Below are positions 9,701 through 43,818 of a stretch of DNA of 64,000 nt, one piece after another. The DNA is from Streptomyces umbrinus (GTDB taxonomy: Bacteria; Actinomycetota; Actinomycetes; Streptomycetales; Streptomycetaceae). The DNA lies in assembly GCF_030817415.1 (NCBI RefSeq), contig NZ_JAUSZI010000002.1:2046001-2110000 (forward strand), written 5' to 3'. Within the stretch, counting starts at the first letter, position 1; each line of letters begins with the position of its first letter. A program made the translations under genes and the position numbers. The notes under the pieces are model-generated. The model ran no database searches, was not told the origin of the DNA, and was given only the letters and a program-made list of their open reading frames with translations.

Positions 9701-11341
9701 CTAGCGCTCCGTCACCTTGCCCGCCGCCACCTCCAGGCGGCGGGTCGTGTGGACCGCGTCCAGCATGCGGCGGTCGTGGGTGACCAGGAGGAGCGTGCCC
9801 TCGTACGAGTCGAGGGCCGACTCCAGTTGCTCGATGGCCGGCAGGTCGAGGTGGTTCGTCGGCTCGTCGAGGACGAGGAGGTTGACGCCTCGGCCCTGGA
9901 GGAGGGCGAGGGCTGAGCGGGTCCGTTCGCCCGGGGAGAGCGTGGCGGCCGGGCGCAGGACGTGCTCCGCCTTGAGGCCGAACTTGGCCAGCAGGGTGCG
10001 GAGTTCGGCAGGCTCGGTGTCGGGCACGGCCGCGGAGAACGCGTCGATCAGGGCCTCCGGGCCGTGGAACAGCTTGCGGGCCTGGTCGACCTCGCCGACG
10101 ATCACGCCCGATCCCAGGGTGGCGTGGCCCGAGTCCAGAGGCACCCGGCCGAGCAGGGCTCCGAGCAGGGTCGACTTGCCCGCGCCGTTCGCGCCGGTGA
10201 CGGCGACACGGTCCGCCCAGTCGATCTGGAGCGTGGCCGGGCCGAAGTTGAAGTCGCCCCGCCGGACCTCGGCGTCCCGCAGGGTGGCGACCACGGCGCC
10301 GGACCGCGGGGCGGCCGCGATCTCCATCCGCAGTTCCCACTCCTTGCGCGGCTCCTCCACCACGTCCAGCCGCTCGATCATGCGCTGGGTCTGCCGGGCC
10401 TTCGCGGCCTGCTTCTCGCTGGCCTCGCTGCGGAACTTGCGGCCGATCTTGTCGTTGTCGTTGTTCGCCTTGCGCCGGGCGTTCTTGACGCCCTTGTCCA
10501 TCCAGGAGCGCTGCATCTGGGCGCGCCCTTCGAGCGCGGTCCGCTTGTCGGCGTACTCCTCGAAGTCGTCGCGGGCGTGCCGACGGGCGACGTCCCGCTC
10601 CTCCAGATAGGCCTCGTAGCCGCCGCCGTACAGCTTGATCTGCTGCTGGACGAGGTCGAGTTCGAGGACCTTGGTGACCGTGCGGGTGAGGAACTCGCGG
10701 TCGTGGCTGACGACGACCGTGCCCGCGCGCAGGCCGGAGACGAAGCGTTCGAGGCGCTCCAGGCCGTCCAGGTCGAGGTCGTTGGTCGGCTCGTCGAGCA
10801 GGAACACGTCGTAGCGGGAGAGGAGGAGGGAGGCGAGTCCGGCCCGGGCGGCCTGGCCGCCGGAGAGGGCGGTCATCGGGTGGTCCAGGCCGACGGCGAG
10901 TCCGAGCGAGTCGGCGACCTCCTCGGCCCGCTCGTCGAGGTCGGCTCCGCCAAGGTCGAGCCAGCGCTCCAGGCTGGTCGAGTACGCGTCGTCCGAGCCC
11001 GGCGCCCCGTCGACGAGCGCCTGCGTGGCCTCGTCCATCAGTCGCTGGGCCTCGGTGACGCCCGTGCGGCGCGCCAGGAAGTCCCGGACGGTCTCGCCGG
11101 TCCTGCGCTCCGGCTCCTGCGGAAGATGGCCGACGGTCGCGGCCGGCGGGGAGAGCCGCAGCTCGCCCTCCTCGGGTGTGAGCAGCCCGGCGAGCATCCG
11201 CAGCAGGGTGGACTTGCCCGCTCCGTTGGCACCGACGAGACCGATCACGTCGCCGGGCGCGACGACGAGGTCGAGCCCGGAGAAGAGCGAGCGGTCGCCG
11301 TGGCCGGCGGCGAGGTTCTTGGCGACGAGGGTGGCAGTCAT
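9701..11341 (-). CDS. ABC-F family ATPase (ribosome-associated)
   Basis: A 546-residue soluble protein with two ABC ATPase domains and no membrane segments. The first has Walker A GANGAGKST (~residue 34), signature LSGGQ and Walker B LLDEPTNDLD; the second has Walker A GANGAGKST, signature LSPGE and Walker B LVLDEPTNHLD. A charged linker rich in Lys/Arg (MDKGVKNARRKANNDNDKIGRK) lies between, as in ABC-F proteins that enter the ribosomal E site. Members either regulate translation or protect ribosomes from antibiotics; sequence alone does not decide. It is convergent with tex, with 202 bp upstream before the end of the next gene. Confidence 0.88.
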   Translation of the reverse strand: MTATLVAKNLAAGHGDRSLFSGLDLVVAPGDVIGLVGANGAGKSTLLRMLAGLLTPEEGELRLSPPAATVGHLPQEPERRTGETVRDFLARRTGVTEAQRLMDEATQALVDGAPGSDDAYSTSLERWLDLGGADLDERAEEVADSLGLAVGLDHPMTALSGGQAARAGLASLLLSRYDVFLLDEPTNDLDLDGLERLERFVSGLRAGTVVVSHDREFLTRTVTKVLELDLVQQQIKLYGGGYEAYLEERDVARRHARDDFEEYADKRTALEGRAQMQRSWMDKGVKNARRKANNDNDKIGRKFRSEASEKQAAKARQTQRMIERLDVVEEPRKEWELRMEIAAAPRSGAVVATLRDAEVRRGDFNFGPATLQIDWADRVAVTGANGAGKSTLLGALLGRVPLDSGHATLGSGVIVGEVDQARKLFHGPEALIDAFSAAVPDTEPAELRTLLAKFGLKAEHVLRPAATLSPGERTRSALALLQGRGVNLLVLDEPTNHLDLPAIEQLESALDSYEGTLLLVTHDRRMLDAVHTTRRLEVAAGKVTER

Positions 11342-38789: not shown

Positions 38790-39458
38790 TCAGCTCCCGG
38801 GCACCCCTGTCGTCGACACCATCACGGCCACCGCCGAACGCACCTCCTGGACCGCCTTCTTCAAGGCGGGAGTCGTCGCCCCGCTGCGTTCGACCAGGTC
38901 CTCGATCCGCTGCTTGTACTGCCGCTGCTCCTTGCCCGACAGCAGGGTGCGCAGCTCCGCCCCGGCGGCGAGGGCGACGAGTGCCGCGTCCCGCTCGGGC
39001 ACCTCCTCCACCGGCCCGGGCCCCTCCAGTACCTCCCGGGCCTCCGCGCGCAGCCCGTCCACGGCGGCGACGCGGTCGATCTCGTACTCCACGGACGGGA
39101 ACACCCCGAGCACCCGCGTCTTCTCCGCGCGCAGGTACCCGTCGGCGGCGAGCTGCGCCCGTACGGCGTCCAGGGTGACGCGGGCCCGCAGGCCGACCCA
39201 GGTCTTCCACCTGTGCGGGCGGGACTCCTCGACGAGTTCCAGGAGCCCGTCCAGGACGGGGTCCCCGGTCTGGGCGTCGAGGTCCGTGGGCGTCGCGATG
39301 CCGTCCACGTCGGCGAGCAGCCCGCGCTGCGCCAGCTCGGTGAGGGCACCGGCCCGGACGAGATGGGGAAGGTGGGCGGCGTCGGTGACCTTCAGCTTCG
39401 TGGTGTCCCAGGCCAGCAGGTAGAGCCGGGCGGGCAACGAGAGGGAACCGGTGGGCAC
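38790..39458 (-). CDS. GOLPH3/VPS74 (GPP34) family protein
   Basis: A 222-residue all-helical protein of the GPP34 family, whose eukaryotic members bind phosphatidylinositol 4-phosphate and retain Golgi glycosyltransferases. Visible features are the opening LPARLYLLAWDTTKLKV and the repeated helical pairs (VRAGALTELAQRGLL; LRARVTLDAVRAQLAADGYLRAE). Bacterial members occur mainly in actinobacteria with multiple copies, and no function is established. The GTG at 39458 is used; the next gene is divergent, with its promoter 45 bp away. Confidence 0.87.
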   Translation of the reverse strand: MPTGSLSLPARLYLLAWDTTKLKVTDAAHLPHLVRAGALTELAQRGLLADVDGIATPTDLDAQTGDPVLDGLLELVEESRPHRWKTWVGLRARVTLDAVRAQLAADGYLRAEKTRVLGVFPSVEYEIDRVAAVDGLRAEAREVLEGPGPVEEVPERDAALVALAAGAELRTLLSGKEQRQYKQRIEDLVERSGATTPALKKAVQEVRSAVAVMVSTTGVPGS

Positions 39459-39494
39459 GAGGTCTCCTTGGTGCGGTCGAGGTGAGGGCTCACG

Positions 39495-39531
39495 TTAATT
39501 CGTTGACAGCCGCGAGAGCCCTTCGTACGGT
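39495..39531 (+). promoter_or_regulatory. Strong sigma-HrdB-type promoter with an AT-rich upstream element (WhiB7/WblC-like)
   Basis: TTGACA (39503-39508) and TACGGT (39526-39531) are separated by 17 bp, close to the vegetative consensus. TTAATT lies at 39495-39500, immediately upstream of the -35. WhiB7/WblC-dependent promoters are known for an AT-rich stretch at this position. Transcription should start near 39538, leaving a leader of about 240 nt before the ABC-F gene. Confidence 0.65.
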
Positions 39532-39568
39532 GTATGACGATTCTGTTGTCGCCGATTGGAGAAGGACG

Positions 39569-39580
39569 TTGCTCGTCTGA
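39569..39580 (+). CDS. Candidate three-codon leader ORF (Met-Leu-Val)
   Basis: TTG-CTC-GTC-TGA is preceded by GGAGAAGGA at 39558-39566, a far better ribosome binding site than that of the ABC-F gene itself. Its stop overlaps the first strand of the leader stems. Tiny leader ORFs of this kind mediate ribosome-dependent attenuation of antibiotic-resistance genes. The reading as a translated ORF is inference. Confidence 0.45.
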   Translation: MLV

Positions 39581-39709
39581 GGTCCTGAGACACCTCGTCA
39601 CACACGTATCCGTGTGTGCGCAGCGTGCGACCTCGGCATTCGAGCCGTCCTCCGGAGCAGGGCCTTCCCCTTTCCTCCCAGGATGCCTTGAGGACCTCTG
39701 TCCGTCCTC
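39579..39709 (+). promoter_or_regulatory. Leader RNA with mutually exclusive stems upstream of the ABC-F gene
   Basis: GAGGTCCT (39579-39586) is perfectly complementary to AGGACCTC (39691-39698). Alternatively GAGGT can pair locally with ACCTC (39592-39596), while GAGGAC (39690-39695) pairs with GTCCTC (39704-39709). Between them CACACACG/CGTGTGTG (39599-39606, 39611-39618, loop TATC) forms a perfect hairpin. A ribosome on the three-codon ORF would cover the first strand and switch the fold. Confidence 0.5.
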
Positions 39710-39779
39710 CCGGCCGTCGTCGCCGCCCCGGTGTCTCGATACGCGTTGCCCTGACCGCATCAAGTACCGCGAGGCGCGT

Positions 39780-41465
39780 ATGTCAACCTTCCCCACCTCC
39801 ATCACCTGTACCTCCCTCTCCTTCGCCTGGCCGGACGGCACCTCCGTCTTCGACGATCTACAGGTGGCCTTCGGACCCGGCAGGACCGGGCTCGTCGGCG
39901 TCAACGGATCAGGAAAATCAACCCTGTTGAAGCTGATCGCCGGGCAACTGACCCCGGCCGACGGCACCGTGCGTGTCGCGGGCGAGGTCGGTTATCTGCC
40001 GCAGAACGTCACCCTGGACACCGGTCTGCGGGTCGACGAGGCGCTGGACATCGCCGACAAGCGGGCCGCGCTGCACGCCATCGAGGCGGGCGACGTGTCC
40101 GAGGCGCACTTCGATGTCGTGGGCGACGACTGGGACGTGGAGGAGCGAGCCGTCGCCACCCTCGGCGAACTCGGTCTCGGCCACATCGAGTTGGACCGCA
40201 CCATCGGCGAGGTCTCGGGCGGCGAGTCGGTCCTGCTGCGGCTGGCCGCGCTGCTGCTGCGCCGGCCCGACGTCCTCCTCCTCGACGAGCCCACCAACAA
40301 CCTCGACCTGTACGCGCGCCGGCGGCTGTACGCGGCCGTCGAGGCCTGGTCCGGAGTCATGATCGTGGTCAGCCACGACCGTGAACTCCTGAACCTGGTC
40401 GACCAGATCGCCGACCTGCACCGAGGGAAAGGTGCGGCGCGCAGCGCCTCGGTTGAGGGTGGTGGCGGGAGACGGGTGGGTGAGGTGACGTGGTACGGCG
40501 GCAACTACTCGGCGTACGAGGAGACACTCGCCACCGAGCAGGAGGCGGCCGAGCGCATGGTGCGCGTCGCCGAGTCCGACCTGAAGAAGCAGAAGCGTGA
40601 ACTGGCCGAGGCACAGGTCAAGTTGGCCCGGCGCAAGAAGTACGGACAGAAGATGTTCGAGCAGAAGCGCGAGCCGAAGATCGTGATGGGCGCCCGCAAA
40701 CGCGCCGCCCAGGAGTCCGCCGGCAAGCACCGGATCATGCACGAGGAGAGACTGTCCGAGGCCAAGGAGCGGCTCGACGAGGCCGTGGACGCCGTGCGGG
40801 ACGACGACGAGATCCGCGTCGACCTGCCGTACACGGCCGTGCCGCCGGGCCGGAACGTACTGACGCTCCAGGACCTGGAGTTGGCGTACGGCGCGAGCGT
40901 GGGCAACTTCGATCTGCGCGGGCCCGAGCGGGTCGCGCTGATCGGGCGCAACGGGTCGGGCAAGACGACTCTGCTGCGGACGATCGCCGGGGAGCTGGAA
41001 CCGGTCTCCGGAGAGGCACAGGCACATGTGCCCCTGCGTTTCCTGCCGCAGCGGCTCGACGTGCTCGACGACGAGCTGACGGTTGCCGAGAACGTGGCCC
41101 GCTTCTCGCCCGGCGCCACCAACAACCGGGTCCGGGCACGCCTCGCCCGCTTCCTGTTCCGGGGCGCGCGGGCCGACCAGCGGGCGGCGACGCTCTCCGG
41201 CGGCGAACGCTTCCGGGCGGCACTGGCCGCGCTGATGCTCGCCGAGCCCGCGCCACAGGTCCTGATGCTGGACGAGCCGACCAACAACCTCGACATGGCG
41301 AGCGTGCGGCAGCTCACCACGGCCCTGGAGTCGTACGAGGGAGCGCTGATCGTGGCCAGCCACGACGTGCCGTTCCTGGAGTCGATCGGGATCACCCGCT
41401 GGCTGCTGATGGAAGGAGGAGAACTCAGGGAAATCACGCCAGAAGCTGTCGGGTATCCCGGCTAG
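39780..41465 (+). CDS. ABC-F family ATPase, probable antibiotic-resistance/ribosome-protection type
   Basis: A 561-residue soluble twin-ATPase. Walker A GVNGSGKST (residues 40-48), signature VSGGE (~146) and Walker B VLLLDEPTNNLD (~165-176) form domain one; Walker A GRNGSGKTT, signature LSGGE and Walker B MLDEPTNNLD form domain two. The charged linker (QKREPKIVMGARKRAAQESAGKH) is long, as in resistance-type members. Residues ~217-234 (GKGAARSASVEG...) interrupt the usually continuous ADLHRG-to-EVTWYGGNYSAYEE segment. The real start is the ATG at 39780; the in-frame ATG at 39534 lies at or before the transcription start. It forms an operon with the UvrA-like gene 10 bp downstream. Confidence 0.9.
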   Translation: MSTFPTSITCTSLSFAWPDGTSVFDDLQVAFGPGRTGLVGVNGSGKSTLLKLIAGQLTPADGTVRVAGEVGYLPQNVTLDTGLRVDEALDIADKRAALHAIEAGDVSEAHFDVVGDDWDVEERAVATLGELGLGHIELDRTIGEVSGGESVLLRLAALLLRRPDVLLLDEPTNNLDLYARRRLYAAVEAWSGVMIVVSHDRELLNLVDQIADLHRGKGAARSASVEGGGGRRVGEVTWYGGNYSAYEETLATEQEAAERMVRVAESDLKKQKRELAEAQVKLARRKKYGQKMFEQKREPKIVMGARKRAAQESAGKHRIMHEERLSEAKERLDEAVDAVRDDDEIRVDLPYTAVPPGRNVLTLQDLELAYGASVGNFDLRGPERVALIGRNGSGKTTLLRTIAGELEPVSGEAQAHVPLRFLPQRLDVLDDELTVAENVARFSPGATNNRVRARLARFLFRGARADQRAATLSGGERFRAALAALMLAEPAPQVLMLDEPTNNLDMASVRQLTTALESYEGALIVASHDVPFLESIGITRWLLMEGGELREITPEAVGYPG

Positions 41466-41475
41466 CTTCGGCGGT

Positions 41476-43818
41476 ATGAGCCAGTTGACCACCGGTACGC
41501 ATCCGCCCGTCGCCGGTCCTGACCAGCCCGTTTCCGGTACGCACTCGTTCATCGGGGTGGTCGGGGCCCGTGAGAACAACCTCCAGGACGTGACCCTGCG
41601 CATCCCGAAGGGCCGGCTCACGGTCTTCGCCGGGGTGTCGGGGTCGGGGAAGTCGTCGCTCGTCTTCGACACGATCGCGGTCGAGTCGCAGCGCCAGCTG
41701 AACGAGACCTTCACCTGGTTCGTCCGCAACCGGCTGCCGAAGTACGAGCGGCCGCACGCGGAGGCCATCGAGGACCTCTCGCCCGCGATCGTCGTCGACC
41801 AGAAACCGGTCGGCGGCCACTCCCGGTCGACGGTGGGCACGATGACGGACGTGTACTCGGTGATCCGGGTGCTGTTCTCGCGGCACGGCAGTCCGAGCGC
41901 GGGTCCGGCCACCGCGTACTCGTTCAACGATCCGTCGGGCATGTGCCCCGAGTGCGACGGGCTCGGGCGTACGGTCCGGCCCGACTGGGACCGCATCCTG
42001 GACCCGGACCTGTCCCTGGCGGACGGCGCGATCCTCTTCCCGCCGTTCGCCGCGGGGACCTGGCAGGGGCAGGGGTACACCAACACCACCGAACTGGATC
42101 CGCACAGGCCCGTACGTGAATTCACCACGGCCGAGCGGGAGTTCCTGCTGCGCGGGCGCCCCGGCAGCAAGGTCACCATCAGCGGCTCGGGCGGCACCTG
42201 GAACACCGACTACGAAGGGCTCGCCGACCGTTTCGAGCGGCTGTATCTCAAGCGGGACCTGTCCGCGCTCAGCCAGAAGACGCGTGACCAGGTTCAGGGC
42301 TATATGGCGGAGGGGCCCTGCCCGGGGTGCCGGGGCGCGCGGCTCAACGAGGCGGCACTCGCGACCCGGATCGGCACGGGGCCGGCCGGGCGGCCCGGCC
42401 TGTCCATCGCCGACTGCACCCGGATGCAGATCAGCGACCTGATCCCCGTACTGAAGGACATCGACGACCCCGTCGCCACACCGGTCGCGGCCGCCGCCGT
42501 GGCCTCGCTGGAGCGGATCGAGGCGATCGGGCTCGGCTATCTCAGCCTGGACCGGGAGACCTCGACGCTGTCCGGCGGGGAGGGGCAGCGACTCAAGATG
42601 GTGCGGCACCTCGGGTCGAGCCTGACCGGGATGACGTACATCTTCGACGAGCCGAGCGTCGGGCTGCACCCGCGTGACGTGGGACGCCTCGGGGACCTGC
42701 TGCTGCGGCTGCGGGACAAGGGGAACACCGTGCTGGTCGTCGAGCACGACCCGGACGTCATCGCGCTCGCCGACCACATCGTCGACATGGGACCGGGGGC
42801 GGGGGCGGACGGCGGACGGGTCGTCTTCGAGGGGACGCCCGGTGAGCTGGCCTCGGCCGACACCCCGACGGGCCGCTGTCTGCGCCGCCGCACCGAGGTG
42901 AAGCGGCGGACGCGGACGGCCACCGGCGGGCTCTGGGTGAAGGGCGCCGGCCTGCACAACCTGCGGGACGTGACGGTGGAGTTCCCCACGGGTGTGCTGA
43001 CCGCGGTGACCGGTGTCGCCGGTTCGGGAAAGAGCACGCTCGTCTCGAAGGAGTTCACGGCCGCGCACCCGGACGCCGTGGTCGTCGACCAGTCGTCCAT
43101 CGGCATCTCGGCACGGTCGACACCCGCCACGTACCTCGGCGTCATGGACACCGTACGGAAGATCTTCGCGCGGGAGACGGGCGTGGAGCCGGGCCTGTTC
43201 AGCTTCAACTCCGAGGGGGCGTGCGGGACTTGTCAGGGGCGCGGGGTCAGCTGCACCGACCTCGCGTTCATGGACCCGGTGACCACGACCTGCCCCGACT
43301 GCGAGGGGCGGCGCTTCAAGGACGAGGTACTGCGGCTGACCGTGGGCGGCAACTCCATCGTCGACGTACTGGAGATGACGGCCGATCAGGCTCTGGACTT
43401 CTTCGAGGACTCGGGCGTACGCCGCCGTCTGCGGGCTCTACGGGACGTGGGCCTCACGTATCTGACGCTCGGTCAGCCGCTGTCCACTCTCTCCGGCGGG
43501 GAACGGCAGCGCATCAAACTCGCGACGCGGCTCCACCGGACGGGGGCGGTGTACGTCCTCGACGAACCGACGACCGGCCTGCACATGTCGGACGTCGACG
43601 GCCTGCTCGCGCTCCTCGATCGGCTGGTCGACGCGGGCAACACGGTCCTTGTCGTCGAGCACAACCTCGACGTCGTCGCCCACGCCGACTGGGTCATCGA
43701 CCTGGGGCCCGACGGCGGCAAGGAGGGTGGTCGGGTCGTCTTCGAGGGGACGCCCGGGCAGCTTCTGGACGCGGAGGGGTCGTTCACGGCCGAGCACCTC
43801 CGGCGGTTCGTGGGGTAG
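41476..43818 (+). CDS. UvrA-like ABC ATPase (excinuclease-subunit-A-like, drug-resistance type)
   Basis: A 780-residue UvrA paralogue, shorter than the ~950 residues of UvrA. It has Walker A sites GVSGSGKSS and GVAGSGKST, two LSGGE signatures, Walker B sites ending [12 protein letters not shown] and [12 protein letters not shown], and the UvrA zinc modules (CPECDGLG...CPGCRGAR and CGTCQGRG...CPDCEGRR). The second zinc module retains four cysteines. Class II or DrrC-like relatives confer resistance to DNA-binding drugs in streptomycetes; canonical repair UvrA is encoded elsewhere. It is the second gene of an operon with the ABC-F gene, so a shared antibiotic-response role is likely. Confidence 0.9.

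Follow-up and report, generated by a model that had tools for sequence, protein, structure and literature searches.

The closest described counterpart of the element considered here, the leader of an ABC-F gene in a 64,000-nucleotide (nt) stretch of the 12.4-Mb Streptomyces umbrinus genome (contig NZ_JAUSZI010000002.1, positions 2,046,001 to 2,110,000; hereafter the window), is the leader of are5sc (SCO6720) of S. coelicolor. According to the accessible portions of PMC12421871, this 232-nt leader contains a Met-Leu-Val (MLV) upstream open reading frame (uORF) that begins at TTG and overlaps a second uORF (MRS/LRS). Toeprints place stalled ribosomes at the MLV start codon in the presence of antibiotics of the lincosamide, streptogramin A and pleuromutilin classes (LSAP), and both transcription and protein of are5sc rise with these antibiotics; a transcriptional fusion that includes the leader is induced by antibiotics, whereas a promoter-only fusion is active without them, and are5sc is counted among the WblC-regulated genes. 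The same text describes a second ARE5 ABC-F leader, that of tiaA (SCO0636), whose uORF is stalled by the same antibiotics but encodes MVGDDDISG, in a leader of 194 nt that seems to be controlled at the translational level. Related arrangements occur outside the phylum, as far as the available parts of the two reports describe them. The vmlR leader of Bacillus subtilis (PMC9226507) places a three-codon uORF (MIN) in its first hairpin, forms an alternative antiterminator pairing and has a last hairpin partly over the ribosome-binding site of the resistance gene; it differs from the window leader in sequence and in having an intrinsic terminator. The cplR leader of Clostridioides difficile (PMC10201436) likewise has a three-codon uORF (MRI) in a 5' hairpin and a second hairpin over the ribosome-binding site, but the latter hairpin forms a canonical poly-U terminator and the sequence is unrelated. 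By analogy, the vmlR model, with its terminator and ribosome-binding-site hairpin, is the closest design to the switch proposed below.

The window leader combines an MLV uORF with a TTG start, an overlapping Leu-Arg-Ser (LRS) frame and, directly downstream, an ABC-F gene orthologous to SCO6720 (Table 1). Its length of approximately 241-242 nt is comparable with the 232 nt of the are5sc leader (PMC12421871), and its WblC-type promoter parallels the WblC regulation reported there; the two differ in host species. It is very probably an attenuation leader of the are5sc type, placed before a Streptomyces ABC-F resistance gene, that switches as proposed below; the device is already described, the window holds an ortholog of the published leader, and as a discovery in the window it is ordinary. 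The initial annotation had described TTAATT, TTGACA-N17-TACGGT, a leader of approximately 240 nt, GGAGAAGGA and TTG-CTC-GTC-TGA, all of which are present, and the scheme that it proposed, a WblC-type promoter, ribosome stalling on a three-codon uORF and an ABC-F gene released when translation is inhibited, agrees with what the accessible text of PMC12421871 reports for the are5sc ortholog. The SCO6720 guide target given in that text, with its NGG, is present in 3 of 392 genomes of the genus, in each case inside an ABC-F gene 82-84% identical to that of the window and with an MLV/LRS leader directly upstream. When transcription is taken to begin 26 nt ahead of GACG (at the eighth base past the -10 element), these three leaders measure 232 nt, equal to the published length, 248 nt and 251 nt, and the window leader measures 241 nt.

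Table 1 Features of the ABC-F leader and its surroundings (window coordinates).
Feature	Position	Strand	Remarks
GPP34-domain gene	38790-39458	opposite to ABC-F gene	borders the promoter and leader on their other side
AT-rich WblC-type element GTTAATT	39494-39500	+	4/6 matches to GAAAWY, in register with GAAAWY plus 3 base pairs (bp) (consensus, PMC7157823, accessible text)
Promoter	39503-39531	+	-35 TTGACA 39503-39508; 17-nt spacer; -10 TACGGT 39526-39531
Outer helix, 5' strand CTGTTGTCGCCG	39543-39554	+	can pair with approximately 39653-39660
uORF ribosome-binding site GGAGAAGGA	39558-39566	+	similar in relatives
P0, 5' strand GGACG	39564-39568	+	pairs with 39646-39650; 139-141 of 141 paired per position
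uORF TTG CTC GTC TGA (Met-Leu-Val)	39569-39580	+	identical to are5scL1
P0', 5' strand GCTCG	39571-39575	+	within uORF; pairs with CGAGC 39641-39645; 133-139 of 141 per position
P1, 5' strand CTGAGGTC	39577-39584	+	pairs with GACCTCGG 39629-39636; 131-142 of 142 per position
Overlapping frame CTG AGG TCC TGA (Leu-Arg-Ser)	39577-39588	+	identical to are5scL2; reported as untranslated (PMC12421871, accessible text)
P2, 5' strand TGAGACACC	39586-39594	+	pairs with 39730-39738
OFF hairpin, 3' arm	39629-39650	+	GACCTCGG 39629-39636; CGAGC 39641-39645; CGTCC 39646-39650
AGGGCCTT and pyrimidine-rich tract after OFF hairpin	39658-39675	+	candidate termination region (weak)
AGGACCTC, distal partner proposed by the initial annotation	39691-39698	+	not conserved at this place
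P2, 3' strand GGTGTCTCG	39730-39738	+	GTCTC within it can instead lie opposite the ABC-F ribosome-binding region
P3 hairpin	39742-39774	+	CGCG 39742-39745 with CGCG 39768-39771; abuts ABC-F ribosome-binding site GAGG 39771-39774; outer part imperfect in the window
ABC-F ribosome-protection-type ATPase	39780-41465	+	561 amino acids; ortholog of are5sc (SCO6720)
UvrA-like ABC ATPase	41476-43818	+	780 amino acids; probable second gene of the unit; 10-nt gap after ABC-F gene

Conservation of the leader was examined in samples of 392 genomes of the genus and 147 of the order, both of which include the window's own. The 17-nt core CGTTGCTCGTCTGAGGT was found with at most one mismatch in 287 of the 392 and 93 of the 147, and in none of the 15 genomes of other genera within the order sample; the reversed-pattern control gave zero among the matches listed. 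A BLAST search with the leader matched 46 of 100 relatives (own genome included) and two of 29 genera, the sole match outside the genus being short (E value 7e-4), and among the matches listed the relatives that share the leader comprise 79 of 80 from Streptomyces and one of 80 from Kitasatospora. Within the window's own genome, the core search returned 11 sites at up to three mismatches against five in the control, and the window copy alone had fewer than three. No match to any of 4227 Rfam models was obtained in 39300-39900 at E values up to 1.

For the structural comparison, 142 unique leaders were retained from 153 (152 loci with a match plus the window) after removal of duplicates and of leaders with missing flanks; at least 120 loci, making up 120 of the 152, had been gathered by exact match to 20 nt containing the uORF. 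The uORF is identical in 139 of the 142, largely by construction because of this manner of selection. In a less biased sample, the 19 one-mismatch matches among those listed, 18 retain TTG and an in-frame TGA (G432:C5 loses the TGA), and of the 19 changes, 11 affect the third codon and the first two codons are untouched; one changed second codon, TTG TTC GTC TGA, occurs among the genus matches listed (G275). Block D was missing in one leader and the start or 3' block in ten, the fold-switch test covered 129 and the outer-helix test 134 of the 142, and 22 further loci (L173-L194, some of them near-duplicates) were added only for the partner-versus-shuffle tests and for those of two-sided changes and spacing, for a total of 164, one of which lacked block C in the partner-versus-shuffle test; loci L195-L204 were not used. 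RNAalifold on MAFFT alignments of the leaders recovered only P0/P1-type pairs and none in the 3' segment, because parts of the leader vary in length, and this approach was replaced by anchoring on conserved blocks with scoring of each leader individually.

A second conserved block, GACCTCGG...CGAGCCGTCC, can base-pair with the conserved block GGACGTTGCTCGTCTGAGGTC, which places the uORF in the 5' arm of a long predicted hairpin (39564-39584 with 39629-39650) made up of the helices P0, P0' and P1, hereafter the OFF hairpin. The best partner of the P1 strand is complementary at all eight positions in 126 of 142 leaders, compared with 3.4% of shuffles, and the OFF hairpin region exceeds mononucleotide shuffles in stability, with a mean z of -2.8 and 82% of 141 leaders below -2. 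P0 is altered on both strands in L176 and L192, and L182 and L193 carry matching changed P0 strands, GGCCG with CGGCC. Further out, the duplex energy of the outer helix, which ends before AGGGCYTT and the pyrimidine tract, lies below the shuffled mean in 124 of 134 leaders; it is weak in the window itself (-8.5 versus a mean of -17.1).

A second long-range helix, P2, joins the segment just beyond P1 to a strand close to the ABC-F start, with at least eight of nine pairs in 131 of 142 leaders compared with 10% of shuffles, and one of its pairs is changed on both sides in L121, L173 and L177-L179. In support of P3, the hairpin next to the ABC-F ribosome-binding site, its strands read CGCG/CGCG in 54 of the 132 leaders with a start, CCCG/CGGG in 16 and other forms in 22 (CCAG/CTGG once), the better of two registers being taken. 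Because P1 encloses the P2 5' strand, the two helices cross and would be mutually exclusive unless a pseudoknot formed. The comparison shows genus-wide conservation of the leader and two mutually exclusive sets of conserved predicted pairings; this comparative structure may be new relative to the accessible text of PMC12421871. The idea of mutually exclusive pairing in the initial annotation holds for P1 and P2, but not for the distal pair, 39579-39586 with 39691-39698, in which it had placed the alternative. In free predicted folds, P1 was present in 107 of 129 leaders and P2 in 20, and with the footprint of a ribosome on TTG masked, P2 was present in 110 of the 129.

The spacing between the uORF and P2 is nearly fixed: the distance from the initial T of TTG to GAGACACC, in the P2 strand, is 18 nt in 149 of 161 leaders, 17 nt in ten and 19 nt in two (the strand was found in 161 of the 164 leaders, a few near-duplicates included). 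The usual toeprint distance is approximately 16-17 nt. A ribosome on TTG would thus end just before GAGACACC; if positioned at the stop codon, it would cover that strand. The spacing fits the stalling at the start codon published for are5sc (PMC12421871), and since the toeprints place the stall at that codon, the peptide itself need not be read.

In the mechanism that we propose, the uORF would be translated without drug and the ribosome would leave at once; free of a ribosome, the uORF and its ribosome-binding site would fold into the P0/P0'/P1 hairpin and lock TGAGACACC in its loop. Transcription would then stop early after the hairpin, or GTCTC of the P2 3' strand together with P3 would mask the ABC-F ribosome-binding site, or both. 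With drug, a ribosome stalled at UUG would cover the 5' arm to approximately 39585 and TGAGACACC would stay free to pair with GGTGTCTC, so that the OFF hairpin would be prevented and the ABC-F gene transcribed and translated. A more specific form of this proposal, which we hold tentatively and consider somewhat less than evenly probable, is a two-layer switch timed by geometry: given the 18-nt distance between the start of TTG and the P2 strand, only stalling at the initiation stage would permit P2, which would both block the OFF hairpin and uncover the ABC-F ribosome-binding site, in a module that could be attached to another gene, such as a nucleotidyltransferase-domain gene (L071). The comparison serves as an independent check on a recently published antibiotic sensor, names strands that can now be tested in pairs and offers a sequence-level reason why antibiotics of the first elongation steps, and not erythromycin, are sensed.

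Several observations weigh against this mechanism. P0, P0' and P1 are nearly invariant and therefore give little covariation signal, and RNAalifold recovered no pairs in the 3' segment; P0 pairs at all five positions in 153 of 163 leaders once divergent loci are added, but shuffles do so in 41%, and ten leaders, including L177-L179 and L190, reach only four of five. In the uORF, conservation through coding and conservation through pairing are entangled, and for TTG-CTC-GTC conservation for coding only is inseparable from its role in pairing. The minimum-energy fold of the full-length window leader already contains P2 without a stalled ribosome, whereas the 5' half folded alone shows P1, and the order of co-transcriptional folding would therefore matter in this species. 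At the 3' end, the search for the P3 motif gave nothing in the remaining 40 of those 132 leaders, and the region around the ABC-F ribosome-binding site is not unusually stable (mean z of -0.88, with 15% of 131 leaders below -2). As to termination, a simple scan of the window leader gave no terminator-like site, intrinsic terminators included, 57 of 141 leaders have T runs of at most 0-2 in the 60 nt that follow the hairpin, and five very short leaders (L143, L128, L029, L191 and L184; approximately 107-150 nt from uORF to start) are without most of the middle, including the pyrimidine-tract segment. Taken together, these three points on termination suggest that Rho or translational control may instead enforce the OFF step.

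The short leaders, which retain the uORF and most of the long-range strands and are putative natural minimal versions of the switch, also bear on an alternative in which switching acts mainly on translation initiation, GTCTC and P3 hiding the ABC-F ribosome-binding site. Loss of the untranslated message by Rho or decay would then make transcriptional fusions look inducible. Besides the persistence of a uORF and strands without the pyrimidine tract, this alternative draws on predicted folds from the P2 3' strand to the start, in 111 of 131 of which at least four of six ribosome-binding-site bases pair with an upstream strand (a count with no null). GTCTC can also face GAGRC at the ribosome-binding site, with pairing counts that are biased because this partner was picked by pattern, and the segment concerned is, as noted, not unusually stable; we regard control mainly at initiation as a real possibility that is on balance rather improbable. 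Far less probable is that the antiterminator in this species is the exact distal pairing introduced above, for all that it forms eight of eight pairs in the window. Octamers complementary to its 5' arm are indeed over-represented in the stretch that separates the OFF hairpin from the P2 3' strand (57 of 136 leaders versus 3.5% of shuffles; with the arm fixed as GAGGTCCT, 68 of 136, a level attained by 0 of 200 permuted arms). Of the 57, however, 47 begin 8-18 nt beyond CGTCC and 28 are AGGGCYTT, G-U accounts for many of the pairs, and leaders that are related do not count as independent. The partner that is conserved for the 5' strand is instead GACCTCGG, and a further octamer of the type AGGG(C/T)(C/T)T soon after 39650 is also complementary to it, much of it by G-U. 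The distal site itself is peculiar to the window, where alone AGGACCTC was picked, with one variant, AGGATCTC, in one other leader (L133), and a ribosome stalled at TTG would cover 39579-39585.

Upstream, the WblC-type promoter and the leader occupy the gap between the GPP34-domain gene and the ABC-F gene, with TTAATT read at 39495-39500 and the transcription start placed at 39538/39539 by a 7-8-nt rule, which gives the leader length to the ATG at 39780. The accessible text of PMC7157823 describes WblC regulon promoters by a GAAAWY-like element 3 bp 5' of the -35 element, a spacer of 16-19 bp and TANNNT, a pattern with which the window promoter agrees, four of six positions of the element matching; a generic sigma-70 scan did not pick it. 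A promoter-like pair was scored in 136 of the 142 unique leaders (no null was run for that score), and across the 142 the AT fraction at -8 to -4 upstream of the -35 element is 0.74-1.0 against a background of 0.25, a conserved block that occupies the same place as the published GAAAWY motif (PMC7157823). This conserved element, and the WblC-regulated transcription of are5sc cited in PMC12421871, could suggest that the promoter alone exerts control and that the leader is a passive untranslated region conserved for other reasons. We find this hardly credible, since long-range pairings are conserved in the leader and, for are5sc, the accessible text of PMC12421871 contradicts it, the leader fusion being induced and the promoter-only fusion active without antibiotic.

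The window ABC-F protein has ribo_prot_ABC_F (NF000355) as its best NCBIfam model, at 331.3 bits and below the curated cut-off of 380, and the solved structures that match it best are ABC-F proteins. The initial annotation spoke of the release of downstream genes in the plural, which suits the window, where the UvrA-like gene adjoins, but is not general: of the 69 related loci for which 3.2 kb or more of downstream sequence is available, only 19 have the pair. A second, distant ABC-F gene (37% identity) lies on the minus strand of the window (match 9707-11296, start read at 11341), and the exact-core leader was not found at this gene (9707-11341). Among the at least 120 exact-core loci, an ABC-F gene follows in 113, six end within 200 nt and one has another gene downstream; in this last (L071:5185-6178), the only such case among the 114 decidable loci, the MLV leader precedes a gene for an NTP_transf_2 (PF01909) protein. 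In one genome (G021; L173 and L174), two ABC-F genes are present and a separate MLV leader precedes each, and three others (G142, G199 and G213) contain two core matches each. In L022, at approximately 1440-1530, the leader stretch is repeated around an N, probably as the result of an assembly join.
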